The position numbers and the translations under genes are program-made. A stretch of 64,000 nt of DNA from Mesodorylaimus sp. YZB2_4 (taxonomy: Eukaryota; Nematoda; Enoplea; Dorylaimida; Dorylaimidae). Numbering within the stretch: position 1 is the first letter of the stretch; every line of letters begins with the position of its first letter. The notes under the pieces are model-generated. The model did not search any database and was not told the origin of the DNA. It saw only the letters and a program-made list of their open reading frames with translations. Below are positions 24,193 through 46,229 of the stretch, piece after piece. The DNA lies in NCBI GenBank assembly GCA_030248295.1, contig JASANH010000085.1, forward strand, positions 124,001-188,000, in the 5' to 3' direction.

Positions 24193-27926
<3,734 letters not shown>

Positions 27927-28447
27927 GTGGATGGTAATCGTAAATTGCCGTGGAATAGGTTGATTGGTCGATCGCTTATGCATCTTGCATTTCGATAACC
28001 AGTGCGAGTCTATCGTATCCTCATCGTTAGAGTAGTCGTGCATCCTGTGATCGTAGAGGATTGTCATACGCTTTTGTATTGCATCGTGAAAAAAGAGTAG
28101 ATTGAATTAAAAGAGGGGTGAAGATGATTGTGGTCAAGAGTTTCAATGGAGAGGGAGAGAAAGTTATTTGAACTGTTTTGAATTTCGTACATGTTTTAGA
28201 TAGGTACGATGGAAATAAGCTGAATATTGCAGTTTATCGTCATCACTTCCTTTGCTCTGCATTTTGAATTTCCCGCTTTTGAAAGCACACCATTATGACC
28301 TGGAAATCACCAGCTTACTGTAGGAATTTTGTCCGAGAGCAAGAATGTTGATCGTATCCTCGCAGTTGCCGAAGCGACTGTTCTCTGGTGCTGCTGCATT
28401 CCGTCGGGAAATCAGATTGTTTTTCATGCGATTGAGTTAATAATTTT
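27927..28447. other. Spacer between gpi-1 and FAM69 gene
   Basis: Presumed 3' UTR of the isomerase and promoter of the next gene. I see no repeats or open frames of note. Confidence 0.5.
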
Positions 28448-30263
28448 ATGGGCTTTCGCCAGCTAGCATCAATGAGATGCTACATTTTATTGCTCGCTTT
28501 GTCCATTTTGATCGGGACAATAATTTTCGTTATCTACGACCGATCGTCGGGCGATTCTGGCAGTCGATCAGTTAATGTCACTCATGTTAGTTATGTACTG
28601 GGATCTTTGGTAAGTTTTTTTAAGTCCGGCCTGTTTCCTGGCACTTTATGCTTGCTCGCTGAAAAACATAAACTCTATTTTGAAGCTAGCTGTTTACGTT
28701 GGATATGCGCATAGATGCTCGCAGTGAGATTCGACAGTCTTGTTCTCCGGTCGCTGGGCCTTCAGGACATGGATAGGTCTAGTTTCTAACCCAGAGTGAA
28801 TTAATATTCTAACATTTTTATTTTTAAATTAGTCACCTTTGTCTCTGTTCTTCATGACGCTACATATTGAGGCGGTCACAAAATTTTGGATGTCTTTAAG
28901 CGAAACACCTCGACTTCGACTGATTGGTGGGTGTTCAAAAATAGGATCCTTCTTGTAAGACATCGGAAAACAAGGACTTCGCGCTTTCGTCCTTCAGGCC
29001 ATTACCGTGGGTAGTTCGGTGTCTAACTTCCTTGTTGAGAAGCAGAAATTTGAATCTGAAAGAGAAACATCACACCGTGGGAAACTTGCACGTGGGACGC
29101 CTAGTATAGCTTTCTTGGCAAGTAATCAGCCTGAACCAAATCTTTTTATTGTTTTAGTGCGAACAATACCAAAAAGGCTGGATATCCGGTGATCTTTGCA
29201 ATAGATTATGCTTCAACAGCGAGAACTATACTGTCCTCGAATTCCACGACAGCAACAAGGCCGTCATAGTGATATTGATCGGCGGGCAGAAGCTGGCTTT
29301 GAAGTCGCAGTCGTCGTTGTTCACCGCCTATGATCAATTACCCGACGAGGTGCCGGAGACGGAGTTCTTGGACAAGGTCCTAGAAATGACCAACTTTCAT
29401 TTACAACTCGATTGGCCCAAGTATCGAACAAAGCAGCTGCTGGAATTGATATGGCCCAGTTATCGGAGGACTGAAACTTTGAACGAAGCCGATCGAAGAA
29501 GTCTGTGGGCCTTGGTGAATCAAGAAGAATATTTGACATTCGCTGTTCTCAACTCGGCGAAAGTATTCCCCAAAACGTAAGCCTTGATTAGTGCGTGTGG
29601 GATTCGATCCTGTTTTGTAATTGCCCTGTTTTCCAGAATGGGTACGTGCGGTCACTTTTACGGGGTCGAATACGTTGTTCCGTTCAAAATGGACGCCATG
29701 TTGTATGCCAATATTAAATCAAAGATTCTTCTACATTTGATGGGCACGTTGAAATTGTTCTACGACTTCCTCAACGAGCCACTCCATTGGTGCGATGTGA
29801 AATTTGATAATTTCGGTCTGAGCGCAGATTATCCCAAGCGATTCATGGTCATGGATGCTGATATGGTGTTCACCGATTCACGAATGCAGCATCTGATGGA
29901 AAGTCTTCGGTGCAAATCCGACTCTGATTGTCAATTCTTCGATTGTACGGCGAAATGCATATCGGAGACGGGCCATTGCTCGAAAAGGACCAATGATAAT
30001 GTGGACGTAAGTGCAACTCTTGGAGACCCGCTCTTTACATTTTTGAAATGACGGAATGCCCCTCACAGGAAAGTCCTTCCTCATTATCGTTGGCTTGTCA
30101 TCGCTTTCAGGTATTCTGCAAGAAGCTCGTACACGAACTGTTCGGCCCGTTCTGGTCAAAAGCGAACAAGTTCCTTGCCGCTTGCCACAATACCAATGTG
30201 AATTACACTGAACGTCTGCGTGACCTCCGCTTGGCTTGGGCTTGGTCACTGTACGATATTTAG
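28448..30263 (+). CDS. FAM69/DIPK1 divergent protein-kinase-like protein
   Basis: Type II membrane protein expected in the endoplasmic reticulum or Golgi lumen; family members have a kinase-like fold with a cysteine-rich insert and uncertain activity. Four exons: 28448-28609, 29158-29576, 29637-30006, 30111-30263, in phase. Exon 1 gives a short cytosolic N-terminus and signal anchor (CYILLLALSILIGTIIFVIY). Then comes the FAM69 pattern CEQYQKGWISGDLCNRLC, a strand-like segment ending KLALKSQ (candidate nucleotide-binding Lys), the catalytic-loop counterpart WCDVKFDNFGL, the metal-site counterpart VMDADMVF, and a Cys cluster (CKSDSDCQFFDC). Ends WAWSLYDI. The HRD motif is replaced by WCDVK, as usual in the family. 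It runs tail-to-tail with virilizer, 138 bp from that stop. Confidence 0.82.
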
Positions 30264-30400
30264 TCTTAGTCATATCTTGTTGTGATATTCTATCCGTTTG
30301 TCAAACGAATTTGTTTAAATTTTATGCTACATTTGTGAATGTGCGCACAATGTTTTCAATCAAGTCACGAATAGATCAACCCCAGAAAAACATACGCGTA

Positions 30401-33400
30401 TTACTTTGACGATGCTCTGCGGCGAGAAGACGGCGACTTGCGACTGCTCGATGACCGACTGGTCCTAAAAAGGAGAAGGTACACTATCGGCGGAGCAATC
30501 AGGGTGGTCTAGTACAATAACCACTGATACAGCACGACAGCATCACCACCCACATTCATGTTTACCATGTCAGAACCTCTGTCGATAATAATTGTAAAAG
30601 AATGGCCTACTAGCAAGGAAGAGCAGTTCCCTATTCACTGCCAGCTAGCAGCTCATCAGCGGACTTACTTTCCGTTATGCCGTCCACCGTAACGTTCTCT
30701 CGGTCGATCGTATGCAGTCCTGAAATGAATACAGTTTACACTATGTACCGGCGGGTTCACCAAACTTGTACGTTACCCTCTAGGCCGGTTCAAGCTCATT
30801 CCAGTCGGGGCTCCACTGCCTCCTGGTTTCATCAAGTTACGTCCTAAATTGTAAGAATGACAAACGTTGAACGCGGAAGACCGCACGGCGCGTTACCTCT
30901 GTCATCCATGAGATTAGGCCCTCGATATCGATTGGGTCTTCCCATATTATCTCGATCGCTGCCACCTCGATTCGAACTCAATCGCGAGGTATCTTTCTGC
31001 ATCGGCTGCAACCAGTTTGGCGTTGGCAAAACCATTAATCAAGGAGACACCGCCTTACCTTGCCCATATTCGCATCGGCTCCGTCTTGACCCCCGCTTGG
31101 AGCACTCGAAGAATGCATTGTGTGCTGGGCCATGATAAAGTCATCCACGTGCATACTCGGAGGGCGACTCGTGTTCGGCACCCGATTTCGGAATGGATCA
31201 TTGTTGCGAGTGATAACGCTTCCACGAGGGACACTCCCTCGTCCACGCAGTGGTGCCACTGAAAATGAAACAAGCTAAAAACCAAGTTTCATTCAGCGCC
31301 GACACCATCTTTCATGCCACCTGCTGAAAACTGGCTCGTATCTTACATGACCCAGCTTTGGATCAAACCATAGTTTTTAGCGACTGCCAGCAAAATAAGA
31401 CGGCATCAAAGACATTAACGGTGCCCTATAACCAGGGCACAAAATCAGCCCGTATGCACTACTACCATCCCACGACTGCCACCCCGTACAGAGCAGTAAG
31501 CACTTACCAAACCGTTTCCTCTCGCCCCGACTCGTATTGATAATGCCAGGAATTACTTTCCTAAACCAGCCATAGTCGTGACCCAAAGCATGCACGAACA
31601 CAGCTTGCCATACCTTTTTATCGCTTCAGCCTCCTCCGCTCTTTTCGCCAATATCTTCTCTGCTAATTCTTTAGCCAAGTCCAACTCTGGCAAATACTCA
31701 GTCCGCATGGCCTCGAGATCATAAGAAACCTAAAATCTGAGACTATGCAACAGGCGCTGTCAAAGCCAGCACACAGCTGATCACCCTTTCCGAATCTTGC
31801 TCCTCATCTTCCTCAAACATGTCGACTGGAAACCAGTAATGGACTTGCAATCGGTCTTCCGATGCCTCGTTGCACACGACCCACACCTGACGATTATTGA
31901 ACTGATGCACGGCATCGGGTGCTGGTGGCAACTGAACCTTCTCCTCACTTTGCCCTGCAACGAAAAATGCACCAACTGCAAGCACGCGTTCTTAGACCCA
32001 TGTACTTACATGCCCCCTCGCTCTCTTCCGACACAGCTGACAGCATTGTGATCAAGTTAGTGACATCGTCGTAAAGCGAATACAACGACGAGTCCTCTTC
32101 CATTGCATCCTGAAAAGGAGACAACGATATTACTGATCAGCCTTCACCAATGTTTACCACACATGTTCGAATATGTCCCCTCGAATGAGCCCCCCCCACC
32201 TGGACAGGGTTTGCCTCTGAGAAAATGATTTTACGCAAATCCCTACGTCCCAGACATCTAGCACAGCACTGATACTCATCGTCAGACGTCCTTACCGCCA
32301 ACATGTTCTTCAACTTCACCAAACAGTGGTTCTCATTCGGCGAATCCACTTTCCAATTCAAGAACTTTCTAGCCTCTACCTTCTTCGTACGCAGAGGCAT
32401 ACTCTCCTCGGAAACTTGCAATAATCGGACAAACAACAAGAGGGTGCTCATCGTACTGATGCAGTCCGAACTGTGACCACTAAATTCCTCCAGTAGACGA
32501 TCCAAAAGTGACTGCAAGGCGCTCACCTCAGTTTCTAACGCCCTAAACCAACATCCATTCAGTGCTTGCAGGACGATGAGCCACAGCCTTCTTACCGCGT
32601 GATGCAGTACAAGCCATAGTCGTGTTCGCACAACATCGCAAACATTCTCAAAGCCGGCAAAATGGTGGCGTAACTCTGCGATGGAGTGCGAACGTGTTTG
32701 AGAATGGCACAGCAGATTTCTCGTAGCTGCTGCACATCTGGTAAACGACACGTTAGCTGAAACCGAAAACCATCTTCAAGCCATATCAGCAAAGCACATC
32801 CTCGCCTACCTGTTCTGCGCTCGATCCACTTTGTTCCGATATGAGCATACCGATCTCCTCGTCGCACAACGATTGTAATGTCCCCTAAAAACCCAATGCT
32901 AGACAAGAAAATGCAGTCCACCAGCCAGGTCCCAGGCCCCACGGCTCGTGGCCTGGAGGGTTAGGCGTCCGCCTCTCACTTCAGGGGCACATTTGCCGGC
33001 TAGTGTTTGACTCCCTTCACCCTCAAGTACGCATAGCCGAGTTTGGTGATGTGGTAAAACAAGAACATGAATAGCGTACGTACCACGATCAGTTCCTGAC
33101 ACGTCCCGTGACTTCTCTCAGTCGACGTATGATTCAGAATCGCCAGCAAGTATTGCAGAAGACGACCATAATCACTGTTCTGTTTATCTTTCCTGAAGAG
33201 AAAAGAAATTTACTGACTTCAAACGACGATCAGCACAAAAGCCAAACGCTGGAGCCGCGGTAACTCAGTTAGTTAGTCGTTGGTCCCGCGCATTGCATCA
33301 ACCCTACCCGGGAGGCCTCAGTTCTGTTCGGGCTGAGGACGGCAGTTTAGTAAGCCCGTTCTCAGAGAGGGACCCGGTCTTCTCAGAGAGGGCGACTTAG

Positions 33401-36400
33401 TAAGTCGGTCGCAAGCCTTGCACACCTGGCTCTGGGCGACTCACCCGGTACCGTCAAGTGATGGACGCCGAACCAGACGAGAATCAGGAAGCTGATTCCT
33501 AAACACCAGTCGGGCAGGTCCCTTTCTCCTCGCCCATGATTATCATCCTGGAATGCTAGTGCTGGCACAGGATGCCCTCGTGTGGATGTCCTCCAAGTGG
33601 AGACACACAGAAGGAACCTGCCGTGAGAGCTAGTCACCTCACGGCCCCGCTTATCATATCAGGACTACTGGCCGGCTATGGGCAAAACGGGTTGGTAGAT
33701 ACTGCGACGGCATAGGACCCAAACCTCAAACTTAGAAAAACGAAAGCAAAACCCTTACTTCGATTGCAATAAACTCAAAAAGCACGTTTTGAACGACGAC
33801 TGCGAAGCCATGTACGCCAACAAATTCAAAACACGAGCGAATGCGGGCGTGGCAGGCAAAATAATTTCCCGTCTGACAATGATCGGCGCTTCATCGGGCT
33901 CGTTCGGATTCGATTTCTTCTCAGTTATTTCACAGTTTTCCAAAGCCACATTCACTACCGCTCTGCAAAATATCAATTCAAATATTGGCTAAGCCCCAAC
34001 TAAGTACGTCTTACTTACTTGACAACAACACTCCCGATTTCCCATGATAAATCTGATAATTGCAAGCAGACCCGTCGCAATCCTTGTTGCAATGTGTTCT
34101 GCGTGGAATGGGCAAAGTCTCGTATCAGAGCCTGAATTCGGTCCGCAATCGGCGCTAGCTGCGACGACCACAATCGACGATGAGACAGAACCACCGCTGT
34201 TTCTTGCTGGCTTAGCGACTAAAACTCAGAAAGTATTTTAAAAAGGATCTGCCAAATCAGAACTCCAGCATTCACTCACCTCTTTGGTCGGCAGTGGTAG
34301 CGGCAGGGGTAAAAGCTCGGAGAAAACACTCAATCCGGCCACGTAATGACACGGGGCTTCGCTGGCATACTTCAATACTTCCATGATCATTCGCGTCCAC
34401 AAACTCTTCTCCGTTTCTAAACCAATCAAAGCTCTCATCGCAATTCCCCAAACACACAACTATCGTACTAACCACTCGACAACGAATCTTTTTCTTTCAC
34501 GTCGGGCTGAACAGTCATTTCCGGTTGCGTAAAGGTCAGCAAAGTTGCGACAATTTCTTTTTGCACTATTTGACCCTCCGGTAAAATTCCGAATGATGGA
34601 ACCAAAGTACAACAGACAGTATACAATTTCAATATTGGAACCACCGGCGACAAGTCTTTGAACTAGAACGGAAGACATTTGGTCAGAAAACGAATATGTG
34701 TCTCCCACCCGTCAAGTGCATGTATTTGCTTGGGCGAGGAGAAAATTCGACCTCGATAAGAGCCCGCCGGACCCGGCCTAGCGGGTTCAGCGTCTACGTT
34801 GTCTCCTTACCGACGGAAGTTCGACTCAGGGCCAGGTAAATCATTTTGTGTACTTGTCCCTCCCTCATCCCCCAGTGCGGTTACTTTGCCAAACATAAAC
34901 ACGAACTCACCTCGTGCCCTCGACAGTGGATCAAGTACGACAAACAGCTCCGGATCAAAGTGATGGCCGGAATTACGCAGACGTAGAACATATGCCCATG
35001 CTTGTTGTTCAGACTGATGCCTTGCTGCCAATTGAGCAAATGCGAATCGGCCAATTTCTAGAGAAGGACAAAAGTGATTTTAGACACGAAACACCGAATC
35101 TAATACGTACTTCAATCAACTGCAACAAGGGCGCAATGACGTCGTGATGATGCAACTGCACTAATGCGTACTTATAACGCAGTTCGCACGGCATTTCTGA
35201 AAAGAAAGCACAAAGTAAAGCCAAAATAAGCAGCCGGTTAGTGGAGACTAAAAAAGATTGAGCGCTGACTAACCACTTGTGGGCGAGTTCTGAATGCCGG
35301 AGCGGTAATTCGAAACTTCCGCGTAATTTTTTGAAATAAACACAATAACAAAGGATGATTCGCTCGTTTTGTTTACTGAGATACTTGAAAAGTTTTAGCT
35401 GGCCCAAGCCCGGATGGGGTGCCCCTCGCCTACGCCCATACATGGACTGGACACAGCTTACCTAAATCCTCGTGACTGAATGGCTCGACGGCGATGTGTT
35501 GCGTCAAACGCAAGACAGTTATCAGTTCTTTTGGTATACGGGGTACGATGCTTTCATTTTGTACGAGTGTTTTGATCCTCGCCGATAAATACTCGATCGA
35601 CTCGAACGTAAATCCAGGCAGCTTTCGCAACGGCTCCACCCATTGTTTGACTTCGGCGATTTTGGACGTCACCTCTAAAACTAAGAGCTCCAATCCCGCG
35701 ACCCTGTTCTTTGTACAATGCAAGGTACCCTGGGAACTAATAGCCAATAACCTTTCCTGGAACGCTTTCAAATATTCCACCGATTCGGCGTGTCTTAAAA
35801 CTAGCAACAATAATTCCGATGCATAGCCAGCGCAAGCGGATTTTCGAATTCTATTGTCCCATTCAGCATCGCCTACAAATTTAATTTTACAAATATGTAA
35901 ATTAAACCAAAATACTTGCACTTACCCGTCAGTTCAATGAACGGCAGCACTGCTCCCAGATTATTCTCCCACGTAAGCACACGAACAACGGCCTTGGCAC
36001 CTTTCCGATCATTGTTCTGGTCCAGAGTCAAAGCGTAGAATGATTGCAGAGTAGTCAACGCCAGAGGATTGTCCACTTCCGTTCTCCCAGTATCGGAATG
36101 GTGAAAACGCATCAGTTCATCCACGTATTGTAAAGCTTGCAGATGGTACGTCATGTCCAAGGCCAGCTCTTGCATCAAGCTGCTGCTCTCTTCTTCCGAC
36201 ATTTCGTCCTGCTAAGACGGACAAATAAATTAGCCAAGTTCAGGAAAACCGAATGCTAAATATCAATCTCACAGGTTTTTGCAGCAACAATTGCAAGATC
36301 TCTTGCACCACTTCCGTTTGAGAGGTCAAGTAGACTAAACCCGAACACTTGGTCAAAAGGCAAGTAAGTAATCGATGAATGGCACTGACGATACGCGACT

Positions 36401-37994
36401 CGCTGCCCGTTGACCAGTGGGACAAGAATAAGTACACACTTGGTAATAGGTGGCTAAATAACGATGAGGTGAGAAATCTCAAAACGCCTGAGGAAAAGTG
36501 ACTTACGCCCGGTTGAACATTCCGTAGACAGCTGAATAAGTGTCTGGTGATGGGTGTGACCGCATGAACATCGCTGTCGTAGGCAACGAGCGAGGTGGCT
36601 GAGCCTAGAAATAATGAGCTTTCTCGTGAGAAGTGTCGCTAAAACTGCAACCATCCGACAGGCGGGTCTGGGTGGGAGAGAATGTGACCGACCGAAGTCG
36701 GTATGAGTAAGGCGAGTCCAGGACTACACCCGCGGCTGAAACATCAACCAGAGGTGTGAGTCTCGCACTCGCCGCCCTATGGATGACGAGGGACAAAAGG
36801 CAATTCAATTCGCTACCCACCAAAAGCTCATTGGCATTCTTGTAGAAATCAGTAATTCGAATTAGATTCTCGCACAGTGATCCAATCTCATCTTCGCTTA
36901 AAATCGCTTCGGCATTTGACGACACGCTGTCTTCCTCGTCGTCATTCATCGACGATGCGTCGACACTCTGCGAATTCACAGCCAATCTGAACAGAAAACA
37001 AAATGGAAGACATGTTGAACGAGTCAAACGCACAACTTACTTGTTCGCCAAATCGAACACACTTTTCAAAGACTGGTGCAATACGATTTTCCTCATCAAA
37101 GTATGAGCCGCTACTATCACTCTGCTCGACTATAAAATGAAAATCTATAAAAGGCATCAAGAAGTAAGCAGGTCGATTTTACCCTTTTTTGAAGAATAAA
37201 ACGAATCACCCGTTGACAAGGTGTAGGACACGGGGCCTCGACTGGTGCAGGCGATTTCAGCAAAAACGAATCAATTCCATTGCCGAAAAATATAGACGCA
37301 TCCAATGCTTTGAAAATTTGCAACATTACTGGCAATGATGTGGTTTCCTCTTCGAGTAAATCGAGCAGCCTATGTTGGATATCCGCTTTCTGAAAAGACG
37401 AGAAAGAATTAGAATTATCTATATGCGCCATGAAAAATCCCAATAAGAACCAGTAAGAAACACGTTTGTGAGCCATCAAAATAAACACTCTGGACAACAT
37501 ACGCATAGCTTGGCCACCACGGATTTATTTGTTTGAAACAAAGCAGCGGCCAAACGAATCCCGGCTTTTAAATGACGAACAGGAAAAACATTGGATTGTT
37601 GCGAAGCTTTCTCGACATCCAAACCGTCCAGCGTGCACAAAATTAATTCATCGATAATTTCTAAAAAGTTATTCACTATAAAACACTAAACACGACGAGG
37701 AATAGGCCAAAGAATCGGATATACAGTAAAAAACAAGCCTGAACAGACCTGACTGGCGCAGATACTGAATAATGTAAGGAAGGCCGGTGTTGATCAGACT
37801 GCAGATCTCCTCGACAGAATTAATCCAACTAAGAAACAAATAAAAATTATATTTGGATAGCTAAATTCCCGTAACCCAGAAATTATCTATGATTGGGCCT
37901 ACATTTCATCGTATGTATCCGTTTTGCAAGACTCGACCAAGGATAAAAGTTTTTCGGCCGAATCGACAATATTCTGATCTCGGTCAGACGCCAT
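30401..37994 (-). CDS. Virilizer (VIRMA/KIAA1429) C-terminal part as a separate gene
   Basis: Virilizer is the large scaffold of the nuclear m6A writer complex (with WTAP, METTL3/14). This gene holds only the part after the N-terminal VIR domain. First exons, phased: 37994-37903 (MASDRDQNIVDSAEKL), 37828-37749, 37675-37503, 37389-37183, 37129-37041, then a chain of helical-repeat exons to the stop at 30401. Middle borders are only approximate. Matches to animal virilizer along the chain: RHLKAGIRLA, HRLLDLLEEETTSLP, FSELLPLPLPLPT, AMLCEHDYGLY, and near the end an RG-rich exon with NTSRPPSMHVDDF. The tail is RS-rich (RTSRSSSSRKSPSSRR). A strong acceptor (ATTTTTTCAG) lies 7 nt before the ATG and the frame stays open through it. 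Introns carry SINE-like and other repeats around 32936-33720. Identity is firm. Confidence 0.85.
32936..33075 (+). repeat. SINE-like element in virilizer intron
   Basis: Begins GGCTCGTGGCCTGGAGGGTT, then CCGCCTCTCAC as in the copy at 26887, with a degenerate B box (GTTTGACTCC) followed by CTTCACCCTCAAGTACGCAT and a 3' part (TTGGTGATGTGGTAAAACAA) that recurs inverted at 45960-46000. Confidence 0.6.
33250..33480. repeat. Second dispersed repeat in virilizer intron
   Basis: A GC-richer insert beginning near GCCGCGGTAACTCAGTTAG. It contains GACTCACCCGGTACCGTC (near 33440), which closely matches GATTCGCACGGTACCGTC (near 50150) in a TFIIS intron. No B box was seen, so its class is unclear. Confidence 0.4.
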
Positions 37995-38384
37995 GGTCAA
38001 TCTGAAAAAATATCGATAATCTAACCGAAAGATCAGATCGGAAAAATTGATCGGGCTCTCGATCTGGCACATCGGTAGACGGTGGTAGCCAAGTATTCCT
38101 CACCCCTTGAAAACAAAATTTTAATGAATACCAACCGCAGTTTGTTTCATGGATACAGTGTATCCATGGTTTGCTCATTCTTACCAAAAATTTCTAATAG
38201 TATCAATCAATTTGTTAATTTACTTTCAGTTATGCTCTTTGTTTTTTTCATAAGTAGAAATAACGAGGTTTTAGCTGGTGCGTAATAATGCTTTAGCGTC
38301 TCGTTGTCTGCTAAGGGCGGGAAGAGTTTATATTTTAAATTTCGGCTTTCGTTTTCTTCGATCTTTAGCGAAAAGTGAGTGGGA
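37995..38384. promoter_or_regulatory. Head-to-head spacer between the two virilizer genes
   Basis: 390 bp between the two start codons, presumably acting as a bidirectional promoter. Splice-acceptor-like sites lie 7 nt before the minus-strand ATG and 16 nt before the plus-strand ATG (CTTCGATCTTTAG). A 21-bp palindrome sits in the middle. No TATA element was identified. Confidence 0.5.
38148..38168. repeat. 21-bp palindrome (10-1-10)
   Basis: CATGGATACA, a single G, then TGTATCCATG: perfect inverted arms within the divergent virilizer spacer, near the presumed left inversion breakpoint. Confidence 0.85.
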
Positions 38385-40510
38385 ATGGCGAAGTTACTTT
38401 TTGTCAACACTTTTTGTCATGATCTCGTCGAAGTACGTTTTCAACAACTTAAAAACTTAAAAATTTTGCTCTCAAATTCAAGGCAACTACAGTAGTAGCC
38501 TACTTTTAGGATTTCAATATCGATTTCGTGAAATTTTCATCAGGCGCTCTTGCAACTGTTCGCGAAATTCGAATAATTCCGGGTGGTGCTAGAATTCCAG
38601 TTGCGGAGGCGCCTCAGAGGCAAGGGTAAGGTCGGAATTGTAACATTACGGTTTATATTGTTTCTGGGTAATCATGTGTGCTAAAGTTGGTGACCCAGTT
38701 GAAGCCTGTTTCCAAACGTTTATTTTCAGGTTGACGGCACCGAACTCGTTTAGTTTGGAGGTGTTCGCGAAGAATTCAAAGCGCTCAGACGCGTCCGTTT
38801 TTGAGAGAATCGCCATGTAAGTTCTGTAGTGCTTTGCGAAAACCTGTTTTGAAATATTTAGTTTTCGTTAAGCTTTGAATATCACTTTGATTCGGACATT
38901 CGGTTTCAAATACCAGCCTCCTACACAACAGATGGAATTTTATTCAAAGGAAAATACACCGCGTTGACGGTTGCCATTTACGGTGATCTGGTATCGGGAG
39001 ATGCGGGACCTGACATTACTCAGCAACCTGTTACGTCGGCAATACCTTCTCTCGGCGCTATGAATCAAAACGCAGCAGCATTATCCTTGGCGTCTGCCGT
39101 ATCAGCAGTGGGCACTTTCACGCCATCACCATCAGATGCTGGGCCCGGTCTTTTGGCCACGGCTCCCAGTGTCTTCGCGCAACAGCCGCCGACTCAAATT
39201 TTGACTGTGGGCACACCGATACCGACATGGGTTGGCCCGCCGCCGGCGACAGTACCACCTGTGTTGCATATGGCACCACCACCGACCTTCAATCCGCTGG
39301 TCCCGCCTCCCATTTCAGTCATTCCCCCTTATCCGCCAGCAGCCCCGAATACCGGCGCCCCTCCGACCAGCGTGGTCGACTATCGTATACAGCCGCACAC
39401 AAGCGGGGGTGTCATGGTCCACGTGCCGTTTGATCCAACTAGACCACCACCCAATTTCACTCCACAACATTCGCCGCAGCTCATGGCTCAAATTTCGCCA
39501 TCGGAAAAACGTTCGCCACAAATGCACAGTTCGTCGAGGCGACACGAGCATTCATCGAAGATGAAGAGATACGAGACGAATGAAACGACAAGGGGCCAGC
39601 CGATGGAGGGTAAACCGATCGAAACGATTGGCACTGTCAAAGCGGTCGTGTCATCAGTATCACCAGTCAATCTGCGATCAAGTGTCTCAATACCGGACGA
39701 GATTCAGCTCGAAGAGGGTGGTAAGCTATTGTGGCTGACATCGTTCAGGGGTCCTATCCTAGCATTCACTCATGTCGCATTTTGATCATTCTTTACTCTT
39801 TGATCATATTGTACCATTGGTACCAGTTATTGGGGTATACTAGCTTGATTATATTATTAGCATTACATGATGCTTCCCTTTCAGAATACGCTGGTTCCGA
39901 GGGCGAGAGTTTGGAAAAATTCGATTTGGAAAATATCAGCGAAGAAGAATTCGAGTTTGACGACGCTATGGTATGTTTCTGCCTGCTTGGTTCTGAAATC
40001 GTTGCGACCCTCCTTCTCCTTGTAGGCAGCTCAAATGAACGACAATGACTTGCAAGAAGATCTGTTGATCAATGTGCGCTTCAATCCTTACAAATTCACG
40101 TTGGCACCGCTAAAGGTAACGGATTGGTTTACGTGTGTGTGGGCATGGCGGTGGGGCTTATCTCCCTGTCCTATCCGTGGGGTCTCATAGTCAAGCAATT
40201 TTACCCTTACCCCTATCGGTAAGAGAGGATGGATTCAGAGTATGTATTTCAGCCAGTCATCGCTAGAGGGTCCCGTTGTCGCAGGTTTTTGTAAAAAGTA
40301 GCGAAAAATACAGTTTTTCGTCAAGAATTTAAATTTTAAAGGAAATTCGCATTGCAAATTACCCCGTCCCTTAGTATCCAGACCCTTCCCACTCGTGGTA
40401 CGTAGTAGAACCGGAATCAACACACTTTATTTCAGTTTTTCAAAGATCCGAGCCTATCGCAGTTTGAGGCTGAAATGTTGGCGTACACGAAGAAGAGTCT
40501 TCATGCTTAA
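38385..40510 (+). CDS. Virilizer (VIRMA/KIAA1429) N-terminal part as a separate gene
   Basis: Seven phased exons: 38385-38432, 38510-38625, 38730-38816, 38873-39720, 39885-39970, 40026-40115, 40436-40510; 449 residues. Residues about 1-130 match the N-terminal VIR domain of animal virilizer: MAKLLFVNTF, VREIRIIPGGARIP, NSFSLEVF, TTDGILFKGKYTALTVAIYG. A Pro/Ala-rich linker follows, then a Ser/Lys/Arg segment, then an acidic stretch (NISEEEFEFDDAM) and a last block (NVRFNPYKFTLAPLKFF) corresponding to the segment just before the helical repeats of the single-chain protein. The last exon ends KKSLHA with a stop. In insects and vertebrates the chain would continue into what is here the minus-strand gene. 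The N-terminal part alone could still recruit partners of the writer complex. Confidence 0.85.
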
Positions 40511-40892
40511 AAGTTTTTGGTATCTAGTGTTCACTTTTTTGTTTCAGATAGGCCTCGTTTTTATTTACCTTTTATGATATTATTGCTGGATAGCATCAAT
40601 TTTATTTTTCTGCACATGTGACAATTAGCACAGGTCTATTTTATTTTGTTAGCAACTGTATCTAAGCCATTATTCTTGTTTAGGAAACGGCAATCAGTTA
40701 ACTTGTGCACACTATCTAGTATAGGACACTCAGAATGCATACCCGATTCATGCATTCTGCCAGAGGCAAGGAAGGTAAATCGTGGGCGACGTGCCTGTGC
40801 AAAAATGGTCACATGGTTGTTTAAACAGTTTCCTTTCAAGGCACGTCGAGAGTGGAGTCAAGTGTGTCCGCCTGGGTAGCTATTTGATGTAC
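40511..40892. other. Spacer between virilizer N-part and kinase gene
   Basis: AT-rich at first, with the presumed 3' UTR of the upstream gene, then a more complex sequence holding a hairpin (listed separately). This is where the right breakpoint of the inferred virilizer inversion must lie. Confidence 0.45.
40731..40759. repeat. Inverted repeat, 10-bp arms and 9-nt loop
   Basis: CAGAATGCAT and ATGCATTCTG are perfect inverted arms. It lies about 220 bp after the stop of the virilizer N-terminal gene. Confidence 0.8.
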
Positions 40893-44539
<3,647 letters not shown>

Positions 44540-46229
44540 GTTAGTTCGATCACCAAACTGGTTCGGACATGCAAGGAGCGGTGTTTTCCAAAACAGTGGA
44601 CACGTTTCGGCCACTAGCCGAACGGGAGGACGGAAATGTGTAGACAGGAGTCTTCTATGGACTTCCGTCCGTGCGAGCCTCACGAGTCTCCGCCGTACAA
44701 GGGGGACCTTGAGTTTGTGTAATTTCTATGACGACCGGTGAAACGAAGTCGATAAAGCACCGAGGTGTCTGGGCAGCGGCAGTGAAGGCTGGTCACCGGC
44801 TTCCCTCCTTGTTACACTCCTGCCCTTACCTGATGGCGGCTGTTCAAGCAATTTGAAGGCGTCGGAAGAGAAAAATCTTTGTTCGGAAGTCACTTCTTGA
44901 ACCAATGAGCTGCTAGAAGTATGCTTTGTGGGGCGATTACAGTAGGGAGGAGTGAGGATAAGCTCATTCATGCAGACGGGGATGACTGAATGATGCAATT
45001 CCGACTGATGACTACTCGCAATTAATTCAATTCGGGTTGTAGAGGGGACAGTGATCTAGGTGGGAGGCACGTGTACATACTCCCACATGTCTTATTTCCA
45101 TTGCATACGATGACAAGCAATGGCCGCCGGCTCACTCTATTTCTGTGCCAGTCTCAGAAATTGCTAATCGATTGGACACGGGCTACTGTCAGAAGGAAGT
45201 CGGAAACAGTCTCGTTTTGCGGCATATATGGGCACAATTGTGGGACGCCTAAGAGTTCTCCAAGACGTATTTTGGCCCGCTCCTCTGCTGTTACGGATAT
45301 TAACACTGCTTGTACCCGTTGCTATTTCGAAGGCAATTGTTGTTCGTCGGCCAAGCGCGTGACTCGGAATTTTTCTTCTTTTCTGTTTGACTTGACTCGA
45401 CTGGCTATCGTGTAGTAGTTTAGTGAGATGTAAAGGAGTGGACAGAGGCCGCACTGTATGTTTGATTGGACTTGGATGGGCCTGAGAGCCAATATGACAG
45501 CTTTCTACTTCAACAGTCCAGTTATGGTCGAATAATCCAAGAAGTAGCGGCATCACCCTTGAGAGGGTCAGGTTTGCGACTCTGTTTCGATTGTTGCAAT
45601 TCATTGAATGAATGCGCCGTAGGATACTTTTTAAATTCGCGCCATCTGTGCATCATTAACACTTCATGTCAAACTGTTACAATTTGATGCAGTAGAGCAT
45701 GTTTTCCCGTGCGCAACACGACTAACCAAAACATTTTTCGTGTCACATGGAAAGTCGAGATCGGAAGCACAGAAACAATGCAAGAAAACAAGTAACAGTA
45801 AATAACAAAGTCATATTCAAAAGTCGAAAAACCTTTTTTGATCACGGATACTTGTTCCCAAGTGTAAAGAGCGCGATGTTCATGTTCATAATTTATATCA
45901 GCAAGCGCAGGTATGCGCACTCGAGGGTGAAAGGGCACATGCATTGACGGCAGGAGAGATGCAGGTTGGTCCCGGTTCCCGTTCCTGCTTTGCCACATCA
46001 CCAAGCGTAGATACGCCCACTCAAAGGAAAGGGCACATCATGCACAAAATGATTACCAGGCCGCACAGTCGAGAGCTCGCTGGTAACTGCGCACCTGGCA
46101 TGCGGAGGGCTGACCCACAGGCCTGCATGTTGTCGCAGCCGGACCAGGACGGGTCTGACCAGGCTGCTGAGCACATTGTACTGAATAACCATGGGTACGC
46201 AGCGGCTACAGCAGACTATGCTTTTCTGG
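44540..46229. other. Spacer upstream of the DYF-5 kinase
   Basis: Presumed promoter and 5' UTR of the kinase at the left end. No supportable gene. Holds an inverted SINE-like copy at 45905-46035. Confidence 0.45.
45905..46035 (-). repeat. SINE-like fragments, inverted
   Basis: Two neighbouring pieces of the same repeat family on the minus strand. GCGCACTCGAGGGTGAAAGG (near 45915) is the complement of the CCTTCACCCTC segment of the other copies, and GTTCCTGCTTTGCCACATCA (near 45975) is the complement of the TGTGGTAAAACAAGAAC end of the copy at 32936. Confidence 0.5.

Follow-up and report, generated by a model that had tools for sequence, protein, structure and literature searches.

A virilizer gene in two parts, head to head on opposite strands, in the nematode Mesodorylaimus sp. 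YZB2_4

Virilizer (VIRMA or KIAA1429), the MACOM scaffold of the N6-methyladenosine (m6A) writer, is a single chain in the animal proteins with which we compared it. In the nematode Mesodorylaimus sp. YZB2_4, the locus is a virilizer in two parts, and in this it differs from the standard single-chain virilizer. The two parts lie within the window analysed here, which is the 64,000-bp stretch formed by bases 124001-188000 of a 333,535-bp contig; the genome searched has 145,146,385 bases in 1,067 contigs. A sequence-only reading of the window had described an N-terminal part of 449 residues with its own stop on the plus strand (38385-40510) and the rest of the chain on the minus strand (37994-30401). 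The split is present in the sequence as described and is confirmed by our analysis. We refer to the two genes as the N-half and the C-half. Their starts face each other across 390 bp, and each gene has its own start and stop. The main features, modelled with a self-written gene finder that uses a generic splice matrix, are the following.

38385..40510, plus strand: virilizer N-half gene (gene model; 7 exons, 449 residues and a stop)
38385-38432, 38510-38625, 38730-38816, 38873-39720, 39885-39970, 40026-40115 and 40436-40510, plus strand: exons of the N-half gene model
38391..39047, plus strand: VIR_N (SUN-like) domain (residues 3-142, exons 1-4; coordinates derived from the model exons)
40080..40492, plus strand: conserved tail of the N-half (residues 414-444, with the intron 40116-40435 inside), a candidate docking peptide for the C-half
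30401..37994, minus strand: virilizer C-half gene (29-exon model, about 1,397 residues)

Two complementary halves of one chain

The frame of the N-half runs through 449 residues to its stop without internal stops, and it carries a complete VIR_N domain: residues 3-142 scored 94.6 bits in a profile search (cut-off 27.7; E 8.4e-27). Residues 3-123 match residues 8-128 of the human protein (E 2.3e-15). The last conserved block of this half is FNPYKFTLAPLKFFKDPSLSQFEAEMLAY, and its C-terminal residues are FEAEMLAYTKKSLHA. The tail shows 48% identity over 31 residues to Octopus virilizer and 48% over 29 residues to that of Biomphalaria; its human counterpart lies at about residues 339-363, where an alignment of the tail alone scored below zero and was not significant.

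The C-half starts with an ATG at 37994 and, through 29 exons and 1,397 residues without internal stops, reaches a stop codon that ends at 30401. The RS-rich end of this model was finished by hand and its exons were partly chosen by hand, and some internal exon borders are uncertain. Judged by sequence, the protein consists of an armadillo-like repeat scaffold, the NTSRPPSMHVDDF motif and the RS-rich end. It matches the rest of the animal virilizer: in a model without the last exons, residues 11-1276 are 33% identical to residues 591-1831 of Mytilus virilizer, and, with a query that ended at residue 1275, residues 7-1275 align with human residues 376-1657 (E 1.8e-96). A Pfam scan of the C-half at 0.01 returned no family, and it is these sequence matches that place the long armadillo-like scaffold of virilizer/VIRMA on this half.

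The two halves cover the virilizer chain once, as had been proposed. A protein search with the C-half returned six proteins from 7,988 scored candidates, all of them virilizers, and VIR_N is located in the same chain as the C-half match in all six, one of which is a partial record. When aligned with these homologues, the end of the N-half and the start of the C-half (MASDRDQN) meet in a variable linker, which at the junction of the two halves is a few residues longer than in the six proteins. The presence of VIR_N in the same chain in six of six proteins, together with the distance of 390 bp between the halves, makes the arrangement more than a chance pairing.

The sequence-only reading had also named a further intact virilizer gene as evidence that would speak against it, and genome searches with the N-half, the C-half and the intergenic DNA found none. 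Exon 4 of the N-half matches this locus only, all nine matches of the first 504 residues of the C-half lie at this locus, and the DNA of 37700-39000 is single copy. A haplotype contig in the other orientation was likewise sought with the DNA of 37700-39000 and 40300-41800, and none was found. The latter query has at least 39 other matches in the genome, and those listed all fall in its last 110 bases, outside the breakpoint interval discussed below. A VIR_N profile search of the whole genome was uninformative, as it also missed the known locus and the controls.

The 5' end of the C-half and candidate spliced leaders

The DNA between and behind the halves contains three further features that bear on how the C-half is expressed and on how the split arose.

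37992..38011, minus strand: orphan 3' splice site TATTTTTTCAG/ATTGACCATG, a predicted spliced-leader acceptor
37995..38384, no strand: 390-bp head-to-head intergenic stretch, one presumed inversion breakpoint and the presumed site of the promoters of both halves
40480..41126, no strand: second presumed breakpoint interval, from the end of the N-half to the point where the protein-kinase gene on the minus strand apparently has its 3' end

The orphan acceptor, whose first exon base is 38001, has a score of 8.45. This ranks it third among the 32 model acceptors, and only 14 of the 7,672 AG sites on both strands of the window reach that score. The start codon of the C-half (37994-37992) follows it by 7 nt in an ACCATGG context. 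Of 33 internal exons, one shows RnnATGG in frame among its first five codons, and the context of this start codon is therefore unlikely, although possible, by chance.

An acceptor in this position could serve spliced leader (SL) trans-splicing, and the genome contains nine SL-RNA-like loci on four contigs (C3, C26, C74 and C117), six of them within about 41 kb on C74, the contig that also carries the WTAP-like gene. These loci (L032-L040) have a 22-nt leader near GGTAATTACCCATAGTGTTGAG, hairpins and a shared upstream block. The leader followed by a GTACGT donor is present in nine of nine and an Sm-like AATTTTTT in eight of nine; in L037 the leader ends in A. For one copy, the predicted fold surpasses those of 198 out of 200 shuffled sequences (z -2.62). 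SL trans-splicing is reported for Prionchulus punctatus, Trichinella and Trichuris (PMC7986045), the first of which belongs to Dorylaimia, the subclass that also includes Dorylaimida. Furthermore, a synthetic outron is reported to turn a transcript of C. elegans into an SL1 substrate (PMC5737717).

Several results speak against this view of the loci and of the C-half. The consensus fold of the nine loci lacks stem-loop I, and only five of its 22 pairs show two standard pair types. The Rfam SL2 model had no match, nor did a C. elegans-like SL pattern with three mismatches allowed. A second SL pattern gave one match against two in the reversed control, so that this match means little by itself; its sequence is the one that recurs at the nine loci. 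In addition, the minus strand upstream of 38001 offers donors at 38224 (4.40), 38185 (5.44) and 38104 (4.57), so that an ordinary intron in the 5' untranslated region, instead of a spliced leader, is possible at the C-half. On balance, the evidence being mixed, we regard the nine loci as probable SL RNA genes, judging from their sequence, and SL trans-splicing at the orphan acceptor 38001 would be a likely route to a capped C-half mRNA.

A further strong acceptor (7.64) lies on the plus strand at 38230, 155 nt ahead of the N-half start. An ATG follows it after 2 nt and opens a frame of 17 codons, which may represent an upstream open reading frame or a 5'-untranslated exon of the N-half.

How the gene may have been divided

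We consider it probable that an inversion caused the fission of virilizer into two genes with a two-chain product. According to this scenario, the ancestor would have had a single minus-strand virilizer gene next to the protein-kinase gene, and the N-half would have been flipped when a segment of roughly 2.6 kb was inverted locally, one of the two breaks falling inside or at the border of the intron that separated the last N-half exon from the first scaffold exon. The outcome would be a head-to-head gene pair with a start and a stop in each gene. The N-half would have retained its promoter, which would thereby have been moved between the halves and now lie inside the 390 bp, and transcription of the C-half would presumably start in the same 390 bp. 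The C-half transcript would open with the former end of the intron, that is, with a strong 3' splice site that has lost its required upstream partner. A spliced leader may then cap the mRNA 7 nt ahead of the ACCATGG start, and the mature mRNA would read leader plus ATTGACCATGG. Two products are predicted. One chain consists of VIR_N and the linker and retains the conserved tail; the other is the scaffold, equivalent to the armadillo-like part of human VIRMA that stands on its own. The tail of the N-half would probably join both chains in the m6A writer complex.

The sequence-only reading had claimed that inverting the 2.6-kb segment restores a normal collinear minus-strand gene. The collinear order holds, and a single inversion is the simplest rearrangement; that the restored gene would be normal is supported only in part, the in-phase donors at the break being weak. 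With acceptor 38001, the frame is kept only by donors that follow the second codon position, and those available before the N-half stop score 1.53 (40476), -0.1, -1.12 (40482, GGC/GTACAC) and -2.24. All 31 donors of the gene models score higher (1.77 to 7.13), a comparison that is partly circular as the same generic matrix chose them. The donor that had been proposed, 40482, lies below the lowest model donor. Together with the simulated inversions described below, these scores are mild evidence, though no proof, that the former donor has decayed since an old break, or that the break cut the edge of the exon.

The same two intervals were inspected for repeats. No inverted repeats of at least 20 nt are present in 28-44 kb, and the two short inverted-repeat pairs found in 36.5-42.5 kb do not join both breakpoint intervals. 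Inverted repeats were therefore rejected as the cause of either an inversion or an assembly error.

The most direct rival to a real split is a misassembly, in which the true gene is collinear and the segment of 38.0-40.5 kb was flipped in the assembly. We regard it as unlikely, but it has to be taken seriously, and several observations that count against fission belong here. The evidence comes from one contig of one assembly. Flipping the segment yields the collinear order, and the finder, asked for one gene, produced a joined model for each of 35 simulated inversions. In five of them the junction ran from 40476 to 38001, and in ten 38001 was reached from 40617 or 40861. Eight joined 40115 to 38105 with the last N-half exon skipped, nine reached 38105 from 40696, 40774 or 40861, and three used exits in the left flank. 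Moreover, the minus-strand donors 38185 and 38104 could end the true last N-half exon if a false break lay inside that exon, which leaves room for such an error. Two other results are unfavourable to the fission: neither half is followed by a common poly(A) signal, and a protein-database search with the N-half for relatives with a like split, in which 7,995 candidates were scored, returned no relative at E 0.001, probably because words of low-complexity, proline-rich sequence filled the search.

On the other side, the simulated joins depend on weak donors, leave out exons or bring in exons that lack homology, and no simulated model leaves the complete conserved end of the N-half through a good donor. 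The lack of a canonical in-phase donor at the break is a mild argument against misassembly. The window contains no Ns, the intergenic DNA is unique, and no inverted repeats link the intervals, so that an error of scaffolding or one driven by repeats becomes less likely. The alternative junction was found on no other contig, and the matches of the neighbouring kinase and glucose-phosphate isomerase genes each lie on one strand in the frames scanned.

Two other explanations accept the split. One holds that intergenic trans-splicing joins two separately transcribed pre-mRNAs into one full chain, for which the strong acceptor 38001 would be in phase with a donor at 40476 or 40482. We find this very improbable: the scores of these donors are below those of all 31 model donors, a junction at 40476 loses the residues MLAY, which match Biomphalaria virilizer, and an in-frame stop of the N-half lies directly behind the candidate donors. 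The other holds that only one half is in use, its counterpart being either a relic in the making or a protein with a role of its own, and the writer working without a two-chain virilizer. This too is improbable, if less so. It would fit the report that human VIRMA 381-1486 alone still binds WTAP (PMC9715571); both frames are intact, however, VIR_N is complete and well over the cut-off, and the tail of the N-half is conserved.

Inversion-caused fission is therefore favoured because the halves are complementary, with intact frames, a complete VIR_N and a single copy as searched; because the contig is gap-free, with unique intergenic DNA, no linking inverted repeats and no good in-phase donor at the break; and because a strong acceptor stands 7 nt before the start codon in a genome with SL-RNA-like loci and the other writer partners, in a subclass where SL use is known, the break itself lying at a domain border.

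The writer complex, known systems and the surrounding genes

In human VIRMA, residues 334-1585 are reported to be ordered in the cryo-EM structure, in which the N-terminal SUN domain, a reported HAKAI binder, is unresolved (PMC9652331). A construct of residues 381-1486 is reported to be stable and to bind WTAP alone (PDB 7YG4; PMC9715571). The break in the worm corresponds to human residues 364-375, that is, 6-17 residues ahead of the start of this construct, so that the cut falls between a flexible module and a scaffold that can stand alone. It is plausible that the tail of the N-half, with its human counterpart among the ordered residues, forms the link between the two chains.

The genome also encodes writer partners: METTL3-, METTL14- and WTAP-like genes are all present. 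The WTAP-like gene was found with E 1.2e-55, and three MT-A70 loci (L023-L029) lie on three contigs, C8 (DPPW), C19 (EPPL) and C100 (DPPW). These were named by motif, EPPL being taken by us to mark METTL14, and DPPW to mark METTL3 and METTL4. Mettl3 is stated in PMC5900714 to be absent in nematodes. The METTL3-, METTL14-, WTAP- and virilizer-like genes of this Dorylaimida genome limit that statement to other nematode lineages.

Over nearly its full length, the worm chain has the same domains in the same order as the single-chain animal virilizer. It differs in that it is split over two genes on opposite strands, whereas the chain is undivided in the six database proteins. The closest likeness to the break is the human construct 381-1486 with WTAP, which starts 6-17 residues after the natural one; that construct, however, is engineered and lacks the C-terminal part, while the worm C-half keeps it and has the N-terminal part encoded apart.

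Gene fission is already a known type of event. In Scoliidae wasps, the mitochondrial cox2 is reportedly divided into complementary genes by an insertion. There, too, one gene became complementary genes, but the case described here is nuclear, with an apparent inversion and a possible role for a spliced leader. In Drosophila mod(mdg4), protein parts encoded on opposite strands of one locus are joined by trans-splicing. The worm shares the opposite-strand parts, but it has no good donor for joining them. For a divided virilizer, a literature search of limited depth found no report, which is weak evidence of absence.

More tentatively, SL trans-splicing may ease the splitting of nematode genes, with virilizer as a case caught while the traces are visible and its two-chain scaffold held by the N-half peptide. 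If so, wherever a break or an inversion falls within an intron, the 3' splice site that remains ahead of the downstream part could be capped by a spliced leader at once, and this part would be expressed as a separate gene without having to evolve a 5' end. The traces still visible at worm virilizer would be the border between its domains, the acceptor that lost its partner and the start codon gained by the C-half. A split virilizer would allow a connection of spliced-leader trans-splicing with gene fission to be tested. In addition, a natural cut at one site of the largest m6A writer subunit would show which parts of VIRMA need linkage, something that engineered truncations merely suggest.

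A tRNA scan and an Rfam scan of the window gave no match. Elsewhere in the genome, COX1 has 15 matches on at least 10 nuclear-looking contigs, several with frame-breaking stops; these are probably nuclear copies of mitochondrial DNA, and even the best COX1 copy, on contig C73, may be nuclear. This copy places the animal near Longidoridae (Dorylaimida): it shares 78% identity with Longidorus vineacola and Xiphinema rivesi, the highest-ranking matches with a species name, which follow six matches that lack one. To the left of the virilizer locus, window positions 25400-30400 hold a glucose-phosphate isomerase gene and a FAM69/PIP49 gene on the plus strand, and to the right, 41100-46000 holds the protein-kinase gene on the minus strand, so that each half and its outer neighbour are arranged tail to tail. 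Within the kinase gene, the stretch 41691-41800 has at least 39 other matches in the genome, of 40-120 bases and 71-95% identity.

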